Positions 1-6,901 of a stretch of DNA of 41,996 nucleotides are shown piece after piece (position 1 is the first letter of the stretch; each line of letters opens with the position of its first letter). Source of the stretch: Actinomycetes bacterium (GTDB lineage: Bacteria > Actinomycetota > Acidimicrobiia > Acidimicrobiales > RAAP-2); the NCBI GenBank assembly GCA_021810205.1, contig JAJZJC010000022.1, positions 1 to 41,996 of the forward strand, in the 5' to 3' direction. The notes below the pieces were generated by a model. That model was not told where the DNA came from and did not search any database. It saw nothing but the letters and a program-made list of their open reading frames with translations. Made by a program: the position numbers and the translations under genes.

Positions 1-96
1 GCCTGTCGTGGCGCTGCCGGTCGTGCCTGTCGTGGCGCTGCCGGTCGTGCCTGTCGTGGCGCTGCCGGTCGTGCCTGTCGTGGCGCTGCCGGTCGT
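1..96. repeat. 24-bp tandem repeat, four exact copies, cut by the window edge
   Basis: Four identical 24-bp units occupy 1-24, 25-48, 49-72 and 73-96, followed by shorter degenerate copies to about 140. The period is a multiple of three, so it encodes an 8-residue repeat (TTGSATTG) in the tail of the minus-strand sigma factor. The array probably continues to the left. Confidence 0.95.
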
Positions 97-1317
97 GCCG
101 GTCGTGCCGGTCGTGCCTGACGTGGCGCTGGCGGTGCTCGTCGTGCCGGTCGTAGTGCCGAGCACTGTTCTTACAACCGAGGTCGCCGTTGTGAGCGTCG
201 AGGTCGCCGCTGTCACGACGGCGCCCGCGGCACCGCCCACGGTGCCCGCCACCGCGCCGCCGACTGTGCTGCTCGCGGCGCCCGTCGCCGTGCCGCCGGC
301 TGTTCTCGTCGCAGCGGGGCTCGAGGGAGCTGTGCCTCGTGTTCGGGGGAGGAGCCCCGCCAGCCAGCGCGATGCGGGGCTGCCGCCTGTGGTGCTGCGC
401 GACGACGCCAGGGCGTTCGTGTGGGTGGTCGCCGGCGAGGCGTTCCCGGCGGTGCCGGTACCCGAGCGTGACGCGCCGGACGCCCCGCTTGTGGCGGGTG
501 CACCGGTCTGTGTACTGACCGTCGTCCCGACTCGCGGCGGCGGGTGCGCGGGTGCCTGGCCGATGAGCGCGACGCTGCCACCGGCGATGGCGGCACCCGC
601 GACGGCGACCGTGGCAGCGACCACGCCGGGAGCTCGCGGTGCGCTCAGCACGGGGGCGAGCACGGACGACAAGCGTGCGCCGAGCCGCCCGATGCCGCGT
701 CGTAGTCCCGCGACACCGATGCCGAGGACTGCTGCGAGGCCGCCGCCGGTCTCCGACAGCGCGGCGAACTCGCGTTTGAACGCCTGGCGTGCCCGCCACA
801 AGAGCGTGTCGACCGCTGGCGCGGCCAACCCTTCGTGCTCGGCGATGCGCTGGGCAGACCACTCTGTCGCCTCGCGCAAGCGCAACACGCGCTGGTGGCG
901 GTCGGACAAATTTCCGAGCGCCTCGCTTGCGAGCGCGAGATCGACCTGGCGAAGGAGCTGCTCGTCGATCTCGGGCACACCGACCTCGAGATCACGCGCC
1001 GGCACTTCGCCCATCGGCACCGTGCGAGACCGGCGTCGCAACATGTCGGTGCAGACGTTCCCTGCGATCACCGTTAGCCAGGGGTAGAAGCGACGCTCGC
1101 CCGCGAAACGCGGGAGCGCGCGCCACGCCCGGGCGAACGCTTCTTGCACGGCCTCTTCCGCGTCGTCCGACGCGTGGAGCCGCCGCACGCAGAAGCGATG
1201 CAGCCGTCGCTGGTAGCGCTGGTAGAGCTCGGCAAACGCCCGCTCGTCGCCCTGTTGACAGCGCTCGACAAGCTCGCGGTCGCGCGCCAAGTCCACGGCG
1301 CCGTCCAACGTAGTCAC
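1..1317 (-). CDS. ECF sigma factor with C-terminal membrane segment and repetitive Ser/Thr/Gly tail (3' end outside window)
   Basis: The minus-strand frame is open from a GTG at 1317 to the window edge, so at least 439 codons. The GTG follows GGAGGT and GGGAG in the purine-rich stretch just upstream. Residues about 19-80 match sigma-70 region 2 (ERAFAELYQRY, DDAEEAVQEAFARAWR) and residues about 135-190 match region 4 (LSDRHQRVLRLREATEWSAQ). After region 4 come a hydrophobic segment at about 230-252 and then a low-complexity Ser/Thr/Gly/Ala tail, which ends in 8-residue repeats (TTGSATTG) at the window edge. An ordinary ECF factor stops soon after region 4. The layout suggests a sigma factor held at the membrane with its tail outside; topology is inferred from hydrophobicity only. 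It is divergent from a sortase cassette, which is its likeliest target. The sigma assignment is firm; the regulatory mechanism is not. Confidence 0.85.
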   Translation of the reverse strand, partial: MTTLDGAVDLARDRELVERCQQGDERAFAELYQRYQRRLHRFCVRRLHASDDAEEAVQEAFARAWRALPRFAGERRFYPWLTVIAGNVCTDMLRRRSRTVPMGEVPARDLEVGVPEIDEQLLRQVDLALASEALGNLSDRHQRVLRLREATEWSAQRIAEHEGLAAPAVDTLLWRARQAFKREFAALSETGGGLAAVLGIGVAGLRRGIGRLGARLSSVLAPVLSAPRAPGVVAATVAVAGAAIAGGSVALIGQAPAHPPPRVGTTVSTQTGAPATSGASGASRSGTGTAGNASPATTHTNALASSRSTTGGSPASRWLAGLLPRTRGTAPSSPAATRTAGGTATGAASSTVGGAVAGTVGGAAGAVVTAATSTLTTATSVVRTVLGTTTGTTSTASATSGTTGTTGTTGSATTGTTGSATTGTTGSATTGTTGSATTG

Positions 1318-1539
1318 CGGCTCCCTCTACCTCCTCCGGGACGCTGCGACAACCCCAATACCTTAGCTTCGCGCTTCGCGCTACCCCCGAAGGCCGTCTA
1401 CGAAACCGCCGTGACAGGGCCACAGCGTGCGTCACGCACTTTTTTCGAGCGCAGCGAAAGATGAGCGTCTCATCCCCGTTTCACCGCGCGATGGGGGACG
1501 TCCGGAGCGCCGGTCGCGTGAGGCAGGAGTGGTCCGTAT

Positions 1540-3069
1540 ATGGGAGCAAGGTGGGAACGAGCAATTGCGGGGGCCGCAGCAGTCGTCCTCGGCGTCGCGG
1601 GTGGCGCAGGAATACTGGCGTCCGTCGTCGGCGCAACGCCGGCCGCGTCGGCTGCGATCGCCTCTTACCAGGTGACCGGCTCAGGGACCGGGCTGAAGGT
1701 GACGCTCGGCGGGACGTCGCTCGTGGGCGGTACGTCGTCGGTGAGCGCGGGGACGGGCGCGCCGGTGGTCGCGAAGGCAGCGGGCGAGCTCACCCCCCAG
1801 GTGGTGGCCGCGGTCCAGGCCACCGCGACCTCGCCGGGGACCTCCGAGACGCTCGCCCAACGCTGCGACCAACCCTCCACGGCGCCGCCTGCGCCGCTCG
1901 GCACAGTCGTTCACCTCGGTCTTTCCTGCGCCGCCGCGTCGGCCGCGCGGAGCACATCGGATATGCCGACTGCCACGTCGGCGGGCAAGGTCGGCACGCT
2001 GAACCTCACCCCAGCGGCGAGCGGCACGACAGCGTCGAGCGCGCTCAGCAGCGTTCTGCCGACCACCGTCCTGCCGAACAGCGCGCTCGCGGGACAGCTG
2101 ACATCGATCCTGGGCACCATGCCGTCGCTGCCTGCCTCGGGCCTGCCGCTCGGCACAGTGCTTCGGCAAGTGGCCAAGTCGACCTCGGGCACCGCGGTGA
2201 CCTCTCTCGCGTCGACGACAGTCGGTCCGACGACCTCGACCCTCGCCACCACCGGTGACGTCGTCACGGCCAGCGTGAAGTCGACAGGTGCCACAGTCGA
2301 TCTCCTTGGTGGGGCGGGCGCCGGCGGTGGCCCCCTTCTGAAAGTCCACGTCGGCCAGGCCGACGCGATCGTCCACGTGGACACCGCGACCGGCACGACG
2401 ACGGCGCAGGCGACTGGGGCGGCAGTGACGGTGACCATCGCGCCGCCAGCGGGCACAGCGCAGACCATCTCGATCGCCCCCGGCGGGTCGAAGAGCTTCC
2501 TCACAGGTACGCCGCTGCAGACGACGGTGGTCGTCGGCGCCTCCTCGACCACAGCTGCCAAGGGCACGGCGACGGCGAACGGCGTGGAGATCGACCTCGC
2601 GACGGGAGCGGGCGCCACGAACGCCGCAGGCTCGAACGGCGGCGTGCAGCTCGTCCTCGGCCAGGCCACGGTGGCGGGAAGTGGGCCCGCACCAGCGGTG
2701 GCCACCGCGGCGGGGAGCACACCAACAGCGTCGTCCAGGCTCGGGTCGTCGAACGGCGCCGCCCAGACACCGTCTGGCACCCTCACGGGTGCGACGACAG
2801 TGCACACCGGTGAGCCCTGGTCAGGGATGCTCCCGATCGCGCTGCTCTCCATGTCGCTGCTCGCTGGTCTCGGGCTGGTCGCCCGGCGGCAGCTGGTCGC
2901 AGTGGTCCACCTCGCCGGTCGGACGACCGGCCGGGTCGCCCGTGCGGTCAGGCCGGTGAGCCGTGGTTCCGCCGGGCCCGGTCTCCGGGATCTCCTCCGT
3001 TCCCCCTCTGGTTCCGGGCCGGGCTCGGCGGCCCACCACTTCGGCCCGGCGGGTCGTGAGGATGACTGA
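1540..3069 (+). CDS. exported Ser/Thr/Ala-rich surface protein with degenerate sortase signal
   Basis: A 509-residue protein starting at an ATG 9 bp after GGCAGGAG. Residues 1-38 form a signal peptide (Arg residues, hydrophobic stretch, then TPAASA before the likely cleavage site). The mature part is rich in Thr, Ser, Ala, Gly and Val, with predicted beta-strand character and one Cys pair near residues 108 and 128 that could form a disulfide. Near residue 421 is HTGEPWSG, then a hydrophobic helix (MLPIALLSMSLLAGLGLVA) and Arg residues. This resembles an LPxTG sorting signal with Leu-Pro replaced by Thr-Val. Unusually, about 58 basic, Pro/Gly-rich residues follow the helix, where most sortase substrates have only a few. 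The stop overlaps the sortase start by one base (TGATG), so the two are probably translationally coupled. No enzyme motif was recognised. Confidence 0.75.
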   Translation: MGARWERAIAGAAAVVLGVAGGAGILASVVGATPAASAAIASYQVTGSGTGLKVTLGGTSLVGGTSSVSAGTGAPVVAKAAGELTPQVVAAVQATATSPGTSETLAQRCDQPSTAPPAPLGTVVHLGLSCAAASAARSTSDMPTATSAGKVGTLNLTPAASGTTASSALSSVLPTTVLPNSALAGQLTSILGTMPSLPASGLPLGTVLRQVAKSTSGTAVTSLASTTVGPTTSTLATTGDVVTASVKSTGATVDLLGGAGAGGGPLLKVHVGQADAIVHVDTATGTTTAQATGAAVTVTIAPPAGTAQTISIAPGGSKSFLTGTPLQTTVVVGASSTTAAKGTATANGVEIDLATGAGATNAAGSNGGVQLVLGQATVAGSGPAPAVATAAGSTPTASSRLGSSNGAAQTPSGTLTGATTVHTGEPWSGMLPIALLSMSLLAGLGLVARRQLVAVVHLAGRTTGRVARAVRPVSRGSAGPGLRDLLRSPSGSGPGSAAHHFGPAGREDD

Positions 3070-4286
3070 TGAGGCCCCGTCGGGGTTCGAAGGTGCCGAC
3101 CGGGGACGCATACGCCACCGCCATCGGGGCTGAGCGCGGACGCGACGACGGCCTCCGCAAGCGCGGCGGGCGGGGGGCAAGGGGGCGTCGTCTCGTCGTG
3201 GGCGCCCTCGGCGCCGCGCTCGTCTGGGGTGCGCTCGGCGCGTTCGGTTACATCGCTGGCTGGGAGTCGCATGCGCACCGTGGTGGGGCGCGCCTGGTCG
3301 AGACCGCACAGGCGCTCGACAACCGCGCGGCCGGCGACGCCTCGAACGCGCACGGTGCGCAGGGGGCCTGCGTGGTCAGCGCGACGGGGAACGGGCAGCT
3401 CGTCGGGCTGCTCGAGATCCCTGCGATCCATCTAACGGCACCGGTCGAGGAGGGGACGACAGCAGCGGTGCTGAGCGTCGCCGTCGGCCACGATCCGTCG
3501 TCGGTGTGGCCGGGCGACGCTGGGACCGCAGCCTTCTTGGCCCACGACGTCAGCTACTTCGTGCACCTCGGCGAGCTGCAGGCGGGCGACCGCGTCGTCT
3601 ACCGCACGGCGTGCGGCACCGAGACGTTCGAGGTGACGCATCGCGCAGTCGTCTCCCAGGGGACCGCGATTCCCGATCCGGCGCGCCCGGCGATCGTGCT
3701 CGACACCTGCTATCCGTCCAACGCCCTGTTCTTCACGACGCAGCGGCTGCTCATCTTCGCCGACGAGGTCCGCAGCACCGCGCCCCGCGCCAAGGGCGGT
3801 ACGGCGGCGATCGGCGTGCCGGCGGCGGATCGCGTCACCTACCGCGTGCCCGCCCCGGCGGCGCTGGTGGCCCAGGGGCTGACGCTCCAACAGAACTCAG
3901 CGCCCATGGGGACGTTGTCGTTGAGTGGAGACACGTCGCCGGCGTGGGCGCAGTCCCCCGGGCCGCTCGCCCTCGAGACCGCCGCGCTCGAGGCGTACTT
4001 CGGCGGGCTGCACGCGGCGTCCGAGCGGCGCAACGCGTGGTGGGCGGACATCGCGCAGCCCGGACTGGGGCCGCCCGGGGCGCTCCAGGGGGCGACCGTG
4101 GCCGGTGCTGATGCCCCGCTCGATGTCGACATCGTGTCGAGCGCCGGGACGCCGACCTCGGTGGTGCTCAGCACGGAGGTCACCTTGTCGGGCGGGATGG
4201 CCCCGGGCACCTACGAGGAGACGGTCACCGCGGTCGTCCACGCCACGACGGTGACGCTGGGGAGCTGGACGCTGCGGGCCGCCTAG
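3069..4286 (+). CDS. sortase family transpeptidase with long C-terminal extension
   Basis: A 405-residue protein. An N-terminal basic region and a membrane segment at about residues 36-60 anchor it. The sortase domain runs from about 95 to 240 and shows the three expected catalytic residues: His159 in FLAHDVSYF, Cys214 in LDTCYPSN and Arg226 in TTQRLL. Sortases cut a sorting signal after Thr and join the product to a wall or protein amine outside the cell. The fold and the TCYP...TTQRLL spacing fit the actinobacterial class D/E/F sortases, and I cannot choose between them. About 165 residues after the catalytic domain (from about 240) resemble no family I recognise; they may bind substrate or the wall. 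The gene is coupled to the surface-protein gene just before it, its likely substrate. Confidence 0.85.
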   Translation: MRPRRGSKVPTGDAYATAIGAERGRDDGLRKRGGRGARGRRLVVGALGAALVWGALGAFGYIAGWESHAHRGGARLVETAQALDNRAAGDASNAHGAQGACVVSATGNGQLVGLLEIPAIHLTAPVEEGTTAAVLSVAVGHDPSSVWPGDAGTAAFLAHDVSYFVHLGELQAGDRVVYRTACGTETFEVTHRAVVSQGTAIPDPARPAIVLDTCYPSNALFFTTQRLLIFADEVRSTAPRAKGGTAAIGVPAADRVTYRVPAPAALVAQGLTLQQNSAPMGTLSLSGDTSPAWAQSPGPLALETAALEAYFGGLHAASERRNAWWADIAQPGLGPPGALQGATVAGADAPLDVDIVSSAGTPTSVVLSTEVTLSGGMAPGTYEETVTAVVHATTVTLGSWTLRAA

Positions 4287-4349
4287 CGCCAGGGCCGCAC
4301 GAATCAACACGAGGGGGCGGCCGCCCTGCGCCACGGCCGCGGAGAGGAA

Positions 4350-5171
4350 GTGAGCACGCACATGGACGAGCAGCGGATCGAAAAGTGGGACCGGACGACG
4401 GCGGCGCCGGAGGAGGACGCCGCGGGAGGCGAGGAGCACCGGCGCACCGCGCCCCACGGTGCACTGCGCCGCCTCGGCCGTTATCGCGGCGCGGCAGTGC
4501 TGACGCTCGGCGGGCTCGGCGCGTTCGCTGGCGGGGCGTTCGCGGCGGGGGTCTTCGCCAACGCGGCGGTCGTGCCTGCGGCGGTGCACCCTCTCCTCGC
4601 CGAGGCCGGCGCCTCGGACGCCGTGCCGAGCCTGCCGACATTGCCCGGCGGTCGGGCGTTCGCGCTCGCCCAGCGCACCACGCAGATCGCGCTCGCCCAG
4701 CGCACCACGCAGATCGCGCCCTCTCCGGCGAAGACGGGCAACGCGCCCTTTGGCACCTCCCCCACCTCGTCGGGCGCGGCGCCGAGCGGGTCGACCACGA
4801 CGTCGAGCGCCCGCACCAAGGCGGGTTCGACAGCACGCGCCACCGTGCCGGGCACTGCCGCGACGACGATCCCCTCGTCGAGCGGTGCCGGGTCTGCAAG
4901 CACGTCGCAGACGGGTGCTGCGTCGCCCGGGTCGACAGGGACAGGCACGGGCACGGCCGCTGGCAGCGTGCTACCAGGATCCACCACGACGACGGGCGTG
5001 ACGACCCCGGCCCTCAGCGTGCCATCGATCGTGCCCGTCGGTGCGACACAGGTGTGTGCGGGGACGACGGGCATCTCGTCCACGTCGGGCACCACGTCCA
5101 CGTCGGGCACCACGTCCGTCGGGGTGTCGACAACGGCGACGAGCGGCGTCGAGGTCTGCGCGACGCGCTGA
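4350..5171 (+). CDS. single-pass membrane protein with Ser/Thr/Gly-rich outer region
   Basis: A 273-residue protein of unknown function. The GTG at 4350 follows GGAGAGGAA; an in-frame ATG at 4362 is the alternative start. Residues 1-45 are charged and hydrophilic, about 46-72 form one membrane segment (AAVLTLGGLGAFAGGAFAAG), and the rest is a low-complexity Ser/Thr/Gly/Ala tail, probably outside the cell. Two short tandem duplications lie inside it: a 9-residue unit (ALAQRTTQI) and a 6-residue unit (STSGTT). Two Cys residues near the C-terminus (about 233 and 271) could pair. It follows the sortase by 63 bp in the same direction and shares the tail composition of the divergent sigma factor, so it probably belongs to the same surface module. 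Confidence 0.7.
   Translation: MSTHMDEQRIEKWDRTTAAPEEDAAGGEEHRRTAPHGALRRLGRYRGAAVLTLGGLGAFAGGAFAAGVFANAAVVPAAVHPLLAEAGASDAVPSLPTLPGGRAFALAQRTTQIALAQRTTQIAPSPAKTGNAPFGTSPTSSGAAPSGSTTTSSARTKAGSTARATVPGTAATTIPSSSGAGSASTSQTGAASPGSTGTGTGTAAGSVLPGSTTTTGVTTPALSVPSIVPVGATQVCAGTTGISSTSGTTSTSGTTSVGVSTTATSGVEVCATR
4662..4715. repeat. 27-bp tandem duplication inside the membrane-protein gene
   Basis: Two exact 27-bp copies at 4662-4688 and 4689-4715. The length is a multiple of three, so the frame is kept and nine residues are duplicated. Confidence 0.95.
5078..5113. repeat. 18-bp tandem duplication inside the membrane-protein gene
   Basis: Two exact 18-bp copies at 5078-5095 and 5096-5113, followed by a partial third. 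The frame is kept; six Ser/Thr/Gly residues are repeated. Confidence 0.95.
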
Positions 5172-5230: not shown

Positions 5231-6901
5231 TCACGCGTGGCCCGCCGCGGCATTCTGCCGGCGCGACATGGTGGCGTCGAGCTTCTTCCACGCCTTGGCG
5301 TCCAATGCGTCGAGGGCGCGGGCGGCGCCGTGCCGGAGCTCGTCGGACTCGCGACGGAATCTCTCTGCGATGCCGCCGATGAGGAACACGGTCGTATACG
5401 GCAGCGGGCCGGTCCGCTCGTGCGCGGTGGTCGCGAGCGCGAAGAGGCGCGTGGCGGCAACCTCCGCGTCCTGCATGGCGCCGAGCTGCTCTTGGACGCC
5501 GGTGAGCTTCTTGACGAACCGGTCGGTGTCGCCGCCGTAGATGCCGGCGGCGAACTCGAGGGCGTACCGCAGCCGCTTGCCACGTATCCGCAGGCGGTGG
5601 TAGTCGGCGGGAATGCCGGAGCGCCGCGCCCGCCGCGCCGCGCGCACCATGTCGGCGTGCCGCTCGCGCACGAGGGTGGGCAACGCGACCACCGCAGGCA
5701 CTGTCGCGTACGGCGGACGACGCCGCGCGCCTTGGCGCGCGAGCGCGAGGAGACCGGCGATGAGCCGCTCTCGACGCGCGGAGTCGAGCGCCGCGAGCAG
5801 TGCCCGTCGGGCGTCCGCGCGCTCGGCGACGAGGAGCGCGCGAAGTGGCGAGAGCGCCAGCTCACCGTCGCCGCCCGTCCAGCTCGCCGTCCATGCGGTC
5901 ATCTGCGCCAGGCGTGCGAGATGCACGTCGAGATCGCGCACGGCGCCGAGCGCGTCCGCGAGCCACCCGAGCTCTCGCCGCAAGGACTGCGCGCGCGCCG
6001 GCAGCGCGGCGGCGAACAGATCGATCGCCGCGCGCAGTCGTCGGGTCGCGACGCGCATGTCGTGGAGCGCCTCTATGTCCTCGCCGAGGCGCGTCGCTGC
6101 TTCGTGCGCCAGCAGCTCGCCAAGCTGCCGGCGTACGACGGCAGCCGCAAGGTCTCCGATCGAGGCATCTGGCGCGACCGCGGTGGGGCCGAGCTCGGGT
6201 GCACCCGGCAACGTGACCCCGGAGACCTGGAGCCCTGCGTCGAACTTGGAGAGCGTGGCCGGGACGAGCCCGCAGTGCTCCCGCAGGTGCTCGACGACGG
6301 GCGCCAGCTGCGCCGTCGACCCTGTGGTGACCTCTACTTCCACTCGGCGGAGCCTGAGGGCTGCCACGCCGGGCGCCGCAGAGACGGTGGTGTCGTCGAT
6401 GGCGACCTCGGCGACCTCGACGCCGCCGGTGCGCAGCGAGAAGGGCAGCCGACGGGTGCGCACCTCGAACTTCTCGACGAGCGGGCGCCCTCCGCCGACT
6501 GCGGCGACGCGACGGCCCACGGGACCGTCGCCTCCGAGCTCACCGATGGTGCGAGCGCCCAGGGCTTCGGTGACCTCGAGTCGGTGGCGCAGCCCGTCGG
6601 CCGCCGCCGGCTGCAAGTCCTTCATGGTCGCCTCGACGCGTCGTCCGCACCGGCGCGTGCGCAGGACCAAGCCGGATCTGGCGATCCGCCAGTCCTCGGT
6701 GTCCATGTAACGGTCGACGAGGCGTCGCGGGGGCTTCGCGAGGACCGTGAACGTCGGCTGTCCTTCACCGAAGCTGCGCGAGGGGAGCGCGGCGAGCCAC
6801 TGGTGGACGACTCGCAGGTCGTGCGCGTCGAACTGCCACTCGAGCTCGTCGGATCGCTCCTCGGGACCTGCAGTCGCGCTGTCGGCAGTCGCCGAGTCCA
6901 T
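5231..6901 (-). CDS. CYTH and CHAD domain protein
   Basis: A 556-residue protein on the minus strand. Residues about 17-215 form a CYTH (triphosphate tunnel) domain with the usual alternating charged beta strands (RRLVDRYMDTEDWRIARSGL, RTRRCGRRVEATMK, LEVTEAL). Residues about 255-545 form a CHAD domain rich in conserved His, Arg and Lys (HDMRVATRRLRAAIDLF, DYHRLRIRGKRLRYALEF). CYTH domains bind or hydrolyse triphosphates and CHAD domains bind polyphosphate, so a role with inorganic polyphosphate is likely. The N-terminal strand reads ELEWQFDA rather than the usual ExExK, so catalysis by the tunnel domain is uncertain. It converges on the membrane-protein gene and is divergent from the Nudix gene. 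Confidence 0.88.
   Translation of the reverse strand: MDSATADSATAGPEERSDELEWQFDAHDLRVVHQWLAALPSRSFGEGQPTFTVLAKPPRRLVDRYMDTEDWRIARSGLVLRTRRCGRRVEATMKDLQPAAADGLRHRLEVTEALGARTIGELGGDGPVGRRVAAVGGGRPLVEKFEVRTRRLPFSLRTGGVEVAEVAIDDTTVSAAPGVAALRLRRVEVEVTTGSTAQLAPVVEHLREHCGLVPATLSKFDAGLQVSGVTLPGAPELGPTAVAPDASIGDLAAAVVRRQLGELLAHEAATRLGEDIEALHDMRVATRRLRAAIDLFAAALPARAQSLRRELGWLADALGAVRDLDVHLARLAQMTAWTASWTGGDGELALSPLRALLVAERADARRALLAALDSARRERLIAGLLALARQGARRRPPYATVPAVVALPTLVRERHADMVRAARRARRSGIPADYHRLRIRGKRLRYALEFAAGIYGGDTDRFVKKLTGVQEQLGAMQDAEVAATRLFALATTAHERTGPLPYTTVFLIGGIAERFRRESDELRHGAARALDALDAKAWKKLDATMSRRQNAAAGHA

Follow-up and report, generated by a model that had tools for sequence, protein, structure and literature searches.

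The stretch analysed here is 41,996 nucleotides from a soil-type Actinomycetes bacterium of the order Acidimicrobiales (contig JAJZJC010000022.1 of assembly GCA_021810205.1; hereafter the window). At its left end it carries a gene for an extracytoplasmic function (ECF) sigma factor, P0001, that faces genes for an exported protein and a sortase. The system is probably best explained as a one-protein transmembrane sigma switch that is dedicated to the neighbouring operon and is freed to act on a conserved element at 1455-1480. As far as can be read from sequence, it combines a tethered architecture, no recognised anti-sigma domain or adjacent anti-sigma gene, linkage to the operon, a promoter-like element of fixed spacing and a sortase type matched to a sorting motif. 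Its assembly, in which the window is contig C16, comprises 177 contigs totalling 3.0 Mb, is 71.65% complete and is taken to be a metagenome assembly. Genomes, contigs and loci are numbered below with the prefixes G, C and L.

The sigma gene occupies 1..1317 on the reverse strand, and its 3' end lies off the contig, probably continuing on contig C81 of the same assembly. P0001 is an ECF sigma factor whose only sigma regions are 2 and 4 (residues 31-99 and 131-179 by Pfam; domain at 766..1275, reverse strand). It passes the family cut-offs of PF04542 (65.9 bits, cut-off 24), PF07638 (33.8, 21.1) and TIGR02937 (86.2, 42.9), and its PF08281 score of 23.1 is slightly below the cut-off of 25.7. A profile of its orthologues matches solved ECF sigma structures, e.g. 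6in7 and 1or7. Region 4 is followed by a net positive stretch and then by a 22-residue, charge-free hydrophobic stretch, a predicted membrane helix (residues ~232-253; 559..624, reverse strand). The remainder (1..558, reverse strand) is a Ser/Thr/Gly/Ala tail that is predicted to lie outside the cell; 83% of its residues are S/T/G/A/P and none is Asp or Glu. At the contig end the tail is encoded by an in-frame tandem repeat of 24 bases in 5.9 copies (1..135, reverse strand). An earlier sequence-only reading had described the protein as an ECF sigma factor that carries a hydrophobic segment and, beyond it, a repetitive tail rich in Ser, Thr and Gly, and Pfam, the charge-free stretch and the composition confirm that description.

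The window holds ~186 residues past the hydrophobic segment because the sigma gene runs off the contig end. One end of C81 resembles P0001 residues 345-439 at 92-93% identity, and its frame runs on to a stop codon (...GSTSTASGGFLTLRALLGG); the probable tail end of the window gene on C81 is GGFLTLRALLGG. With this piece the outer tail comes to about 230 residues. The earlier figure of at least 230 outer residues is therefore not reached in the window but is about right once C81 is added. The copy number of the short repeat differs between window 1-135 and L033:5814-6205, two contigs of one assembly. The two ends are for that reason probably strain variants of one presumably joined gene, which suggests that the length of the tail repeat varies between strains.

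The extension to the left also bears on two further expectations. The next gene beyond the tail on C81 is convergent. Over most of its length it shares 69% identity with the flanking gene of the sigma gene in G003, a gene with helicase domains of the Lhr type. The stop codons of the sigma and helicase genes are ~65 bases apart, leaving no room for an anti-sigma gene at this end, and the other neighbour, in the window, is the exported protein. Thus, no anti-sigma gene adjoins the sigma gene on either side, as had been proposed from the window. The idea that the tail is anchored to the surface found no support: no sorting signal is visible at the probable tail end on C81, and no printed orthologue tail, inspected by eye, ends in a motif followed by a hydrophobic stretch and basic residues. 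The sigma tail as a sortase substrate was rejected on the same inspection.

P0001 belongs to a family of the order. Clear orthologues were found in 14 of 41 related genomes (E <=1.5e-43; next match 3.8e-30), and a profile built on those 14 (A1) detected 48 loci in 44 of 298 genomes from the order; its scores show a gap between 222 and 181 bits. The two sets, which have seven genomes in common, merge to 55 loci. A separate scan of genome contigs gave 80 loci; 78 of these encode ECF sigma factors with 26-41% identity and were left out of the analysis. The orthologue is present in 4 of the 13 genomes from the window's own genus, and some of the remaining genomes are incomplete. Pfam matches sigma regions 2 and 4 in all 55 members. 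Among the Pfam families listed for these members (25 of 32), there is no zinc-finger or anti-sigma family and no carbohydrate-binding family, and one member weakly matches Extensin_1. None of the 14 orthologues examined has a Cys after region 4.

The hydrophobic segment recurs across the family. In a test that took the best 19-residue window after region 4, on a hydrophobicity scale, four of the 55 members were too short, leaving 51. As controls served 48 frames of soluble RuvB, QueA, MlaF or helicase proteins. In 50 of these 51 members the segment scores as more membrane-like than every control frame at its best window, although G038 does so by a small margin (4.23 against 4.27). The hydrophobic window is charge-free in 47 of 51, and in 46 its preceding stretch carries more positive charge than its following one. 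It lies mostly 36-73 residues past region 4, with G210, where the best window comes directly after region 4, and G201b as outliers. The values overlap those of sortase membrane anchors, and shuffles of the same composition often equal them (17 to 800 of 1000). A search for the same fusion in relatives, suggested at the outset, thus yielded 55 orthologous loci, and hydrophobicity supports a tethered topology in 50 of the 51 testable members.

The tails themselves differ. Past region 4 there is little sequence conservation. Of the 50 tails long enough to test, 18 contain tandem repeats, versus none of 50 sigma domains. Repeat-driven change in length together with the lack of conserved tail sequence suggests that the tail is a stalk or bulk sensor rather than a ligand-binding domain. 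Orthologues beside ruvB and queA (L043-L047 and others) mostly have shorter, more charged tails; inspection by eye shows a G-x-DP motif close to the end of several of them. Another, distantly related kind of ECF sigma factor that also combines a hydrophobic segment with a tail rich in Ser and Thr is encoded at L049:6899-8395 (own genome, C4) and L050:147-2483 (G002), the latter with an additional longer, less repetitive region in its tail.

The pairing of the sigma gene with a sortase cassette is real, yet it is one of three contexts. The genes for the exported protein (SUB; 1540..3069, forward strand) and the sortase (SRT; 3069..4286, forward strand) adjoin the sigma gene in 14 of the 55 loci, 12 divergent and two co-directional (G142, G173), across four family codes of the order. 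Conservation of the sigma-sortase pairing in relatives, a point raised by the earlier reading, is therefore seen, in a minority of loci. Genes of the mce type lie near the sigma gene in 16 loci, 13 of them with divergent yrbE-type permeases and three (G105, G305, G056) with a downstream MlaF-like ATP-binding cassette ATPase alone; these three are weaker cases because the ATPase family is common. Six loci have both the cassette and mce genes, 24 have either, and G014, G226, G176, G247 and G088 share the gene order sigma, SUB, SRT, yrbE, mce. Another 14 orthologues adjoin queA and, where the contig continues, ruvB; 17 loci have other or unreadable neighbours. On the sigma tree the cassette, mce and ruvB-queA labels are each clustered (0 of 500 shuffles as low), and the combined label reached 93 of 500. 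Twelve of the 14 cassette-linked genes fall in one weakly supported group of 17 (89/87) and two outside it, so a single origin cannot be claimed. At L039, L040, L167 and other loci the sigma gene sits between a divergent yrbE-mce operon and an MlaF-like ATPase gene, a position that makes the sigma factor a candidate regulator of mce lipid transport in this order.

The element that the sigma factor may read is CGAAAG-N16-CGTT at 1455..1480 on the forward strand (boxes at 1455-1460 and 1477-1480), with the SUB start codon at 1540, 60 bases after its last base. The pattern CG[CAT]AAG-N14..19-[CG]GTT, searched within 700 bases and reading toward the divergent gene, is present in 21 of the 24 loci linked to the cassette or to mce genes, always including a match with a 16-base spacer, compared with a mean of 0.41 and a maximum of 3 of 24 in 200 shuffles. 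G145 holds a second match with a different spacer. The consensus of the 21 elements is ACCG[CA]AAGGT-N13-CCGTT. Toward the divergent gene the pattern occurs in none of the 14 ruvB-queA loci and in one of the 17 others, there with a 19-base spacer. It is also absent from the 700 bases upstream of all 10 testable SUB genes away from the sigma gene (11 in total, the eleventh at a contig end). The first in-frame SUB start lies 48-107 bases past the element in 9 of 12 loci, and the yrbE start 9-11 bases past it in four. The candidate promoter first proposed, at 1402-1433, was not conserved: its regular expression, GAAAC-N17..21-CGTG, was found in the window only among the 55 sigma loci.

Reading toward the sigma gene, six of the 55 loci have the 16-base form (G016, G145, G056, G037, G311 and G066; summed shuffle mean 0.14), namely 3 of 24, 2 of 14 and 1 of 17 loci of the linked, ruvB-queA and other classes (shuffle means 0.07, 0.03 and 0.04). 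It may mark autoregulation in a minority of loci, and the element is not wholly absent from the ruvB-queA class, since G037 and G311 carry this form. A strict form of the element is at background genome-wide, with 35 matches in the 298 genomes versus about 67, counted by hand, for a reversed control, and for this reason it is read as a dedicated local target. Six of the 35 matches lie between a sigma gene of this family and its divergent neighbour, and one more (G037) lies before the sigma gene in the sigma direction. A possible second target in the window's own genome, at L034:5817, was set aside, being inside the coding start of an ice-binding-like gene that has GGAGG before its start; two further own-genome matches of a looser pattern lie on C29 and C98.

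The predicted output of the window operon is a surface protein with an atypical sorting signal. SUB has a signal peptide, a beta-rich domain and a C-terminal sorting-type signal with the predicted motif VHTGEPWSG (2800..2826, forward strand), followed by a hydrophobic stretch and RR. Sortases act through His, Cys and Arg residues at the active site, and their class motifs include LPxTG, LAxTG and LPxTA. The window sortase has an N-terminal membrane segment, a PF04203 catalytic domain (3411-3767; 62.6 bits, cut-off 26.6) and a C-terminal extension of 172 residues. Its AHDVSYF, DTCYP and TTQR align by eye with the AHDVS, DTC and TxxR of similar sortases. Although nearest to classes D and E in NCBIfam, it falls below both cut-offs (60.6 of 165 and 51.5 of 160 bits). 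In the sorting-type signal of SUB, TG, a hydrophobic stretch and basic residues are present, Leu-Pro is absent, and ~60 more residues follow in the window's genus.

All 14 sigma-adjacent sortases have at least 168 residues after the catalytic domain. For a comparison of motifs, 24 loci with an extended sortase (at least 147 residues after the catalytic domain) and a readable substrate were used: the 14 sigma-linked loci, two other SUB loci (G054, G016) and eight from the own genome or genus mates (L034, L206-L212). All 24 substrates carry HTG[ELA]x[WF] near the C-terminus, with a hydrophobic stretch and then basic residues behind it, and in six of six cases the substrates beside sortases without the extension end in LP[FRY]TG. 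The substrates of L206 to L211 are not adjacent to the sortase frame, which begins 0.7 to 1.2 kb after them, and L207 and L212 each have one further frame without the HTG motif. Left out of the count were G004 C50 (no substrate found), G282 (an HTG substrate, no sortase on the contig), G036, and G219 and G242 (LAFTG, no sortase found in the stretch). By Pfam the HTG substrates are of different make-up: SUB matches no family, P0005 and the L212 protein are ice-binding-like (PF11999), and those of L206 and L210 have DUF11/DUF7927 repeats. This difference favours HTG as a signal over shared ancestry alone. A SUB profile weakly matches two repeat-type fragments (E 9e-6 and 9e-5) and gives no such match for the ice-binding-like type, so SUB and the repeat-type substrates may not be wholly unrelated.

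Similar genes lie elsewhere in the genus. At L034:5794-7167 (own genome, C80) a PF11999 ice-binding-like protein with a signal peptide ends in SVHTGEPWAGW and a membrane stretch, and its gene precedes a second extended sortase; a like pair is found in G002 (L212). The genus mates of L206-L211, in which no sigma orthologue was found, have extended sortases near repeat proteins that end in HTGEP[WF]AG and an Arg run; DUF11/DUF7927 was assigned in L206 and L210, the two scanned with Pfam among these loci. Downstream of the window sortase, a gene at 4350..5171 (forward strand) encodes a small single-pass membrane protein with a low-complexity tail. The sequence-only reading had listed an exported protein, a sortase and a membrane protein with a similar tail, and all three are confirmed at 1540-3069, 3069-4286 and 4350-5171. 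The last gene has no tblastn match below E 1 in G002, G003, G004 or G014. The open frame 3' of the sortase in G002, G003 and G004 has the same layout by eye (N-terminus, membrane segment, low-complexity tail), and a similar layout is thus seen in three of three genus mates with the cassette. A gene for a CHAD/CYTH domain protein (Pfam) follows at 5231-6901, with a homologue at this place in all four cassette-bearing members of the genus.

In the mechanism proposed here, one helix after region 4 would tether the ECF sigma factor to the membrane, and the mucin-like tail would lie outside. The tether itself would keep the sigma domain from the chromosome or RNA polymerase, and no separate anti-sigma factor would be needed. 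An envelope signal would cause loss of the tail or helix, most likely through regulated proteolysis, a guess by analogy with IutY and SCO4117. The freed sigma domain would direct RNA polymerase to the 1455-1480 element and so turn on the genes for the exported substrate and for the sortase dedicated to it; in relatives it would also turn on the mce lipid-transport operon. The sortase would recognise HTG instead of LPxTG and attach the substrate to the cell surface. What is conditional in this scheme is that the helix inserts into the membrane, that the sigma factor recognises the element, that a signal brings about its release, and that the sortase anchors the substrate.

Several observations weigh against it. 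An AlphaFold2 model from a shallow alignment of 14 sequences has confident sigma domains and shows no helix at the hydrophobic stretch (pLDDT, the predicted local distance difference test, <50), and the stretch is Ala/Gly-rich and just moderately hydrophobic. Because of the model, the membrane role rests on hydrophobicity, position and charge bias. The missing helix, the modest hydrophobicity of Ala/Gly-rich segments and the shuffles that reach the same values would suit a cytosolic ECF sigma factor in which the stretch is not a membrane helix and the tail is disordered and of low complexity, as is common in GC-rich genomes. This is improbable, given that the charge-free stretch and the charge bias recur at similar distances from region 4, that the values overlap those of sortase anchors, and that repeats confined to the tails fit a surface-exposed stalk. 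Somewhat less unlikely is a C-terminal part that is never released and either inhibits the sigma domain within the same molecule or keeps it at the membrane constantly, with control by conformation or by an unlinked anti-sigma factor and with the sigma factor still driving its neighbours. The poor conservation of the region after region 4 and the lack of a regulatory domain among the Pfam families listed for the 55 members argue against such an arrangement, to which the long helix that extends in the model from region 4 to residue 213 and the net positive stretch before the segment in most orthologues would lend themselves; ECF41-type extensions were proposed to act by conformation (PMC8999054).

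The element meets objections of its own. The pattern was framed by eye on 20 of the 24 loci before it was tested, and the count is partly post hoc; of the four loci outside the initial 20, G105 has the element, G142 has it before SUB, and G056 and G173 are without it, and the G226 element lies beyond the stretch read before the pattern was framed. The first in-frame start is just 7-18 bases past the element in the cassette loci G145, G226 and G305, and the first in-frame yrbE start is more than 350 bases away in G032 and G131a. The -35 part of the window element, AGCGAAAGAT, is less typical than ACCGCAAGGT, and in the own genome the looser pattern shows no enrichment (3 matches versus 4 in the control). 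HTG substrates with extended sortases also occur in genus mates in which no sigma orthologue was detected. That the element belongs to this sigma factor rather than to another is an inference. The element could belong to another sigma factor or an activator, with the tethered sigma gene a neighbour by inheritance, and in most loci it is indeed positioned for the divergent gene and not for the sigma gene. Its presence in 21 of 24 sigma-adjacent loci and its absence before the testable SUB genes elsewhere make this very improbable. ECF biology would lead one to expect that the tethered sigma factor reads the element and that its tether restrains it, and such reading of the element is the preferred interpretation.

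Membrane-fused ECF sigma factors are already known (ECF48, ECF52 and ECF53), and the window family may work like them. SCO4117 of Streptomyces coelicolor (ECF52) has a zinc finger, a membrane segment and a carbohydrate-binding module (PMC5826349), and its activation by proteolysis has been proposed (PMC8999054). The window family resembles it in having an actinobacterial ECF domain, a predicted membrane segment and a long low-complexity outer part. It is not filed in ECF52 because, going by these descriptions, the zinc finger and carbohydrate-binding module were not found in it; the portion of PMC5826349 at hand reports no sortase cassette adjoining SCO4117. IutY (ECF243) is likewise a sigma factor fused to a membrane part and activated by proteolysis (PMC8999054). 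ECF48, ECF53 and IutY share the fusion but are described there with an anti-sigma or zinc-finger part, whereas none is recognised in the window family. A zinc finger of the ZAS (zinc-associated anti-sigma) type between sigma domain and membrane, by which ECF48, ECF52 and ECF53 are defined, is not found among the Pfam families listed for the 55 members; for the membrane helix that also defines these groups, hydrophobicity agrees in 50 of 51 and the AlphaFold2 model does not.

The sortase differs from the class D and E enzymes, with which it shares the PF04203 domain and its best NCBIfam matches, in lying far under the cut-offs, in having at least 147 residues after the catalytic domain and in the HTG substrates nearby. 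Sortases also play a role in the BldN-RsbN/chaplin system of Streptomyces. Like the proposed switch, BldN is an ECF sigma factor that controls cell-surface proteins. These include the chaplins, and BldN is controlled by a separate anti-sigma factor, RsbN (PMC4255298); none is recognised beside the window gene. P0001 is not of the BldN family (TIGR02952, 73 bits against a cut-off of 206.45). The BldN promoter, CGTAAC-N16-CGTTGA (PMC2375139), has the same layout as the window element. The titles and abstracts listed in literature searches, with most subscription papers outside this scope, gave no description of this sigma family or of an HTG sorting motif, and none of a regulator of mce lipid-transport operons in this order.

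More tentatively, and at less than even chance, the Acidimicrobiales may have a family of one-protein transmembrane sigma factors with a fast-evolving repeat stalk as sensor and no anti-sigma factor, many copies of which are dedicated to a single adjacent envelope operon, either an mce importer or an extended sortase with an HTG code, or both. If true, signalling from envelope to transcription would take place in one protein without the usual partner, and with a single neighbouring operon as the target, stimulus and output would be testable together. The sortase and its substrates would represent a code outside LPxTG that is common to substrates of different Pfam make-up, and the sigma factor would be a candidate regulator for the mce lipid-transport operons of this order.

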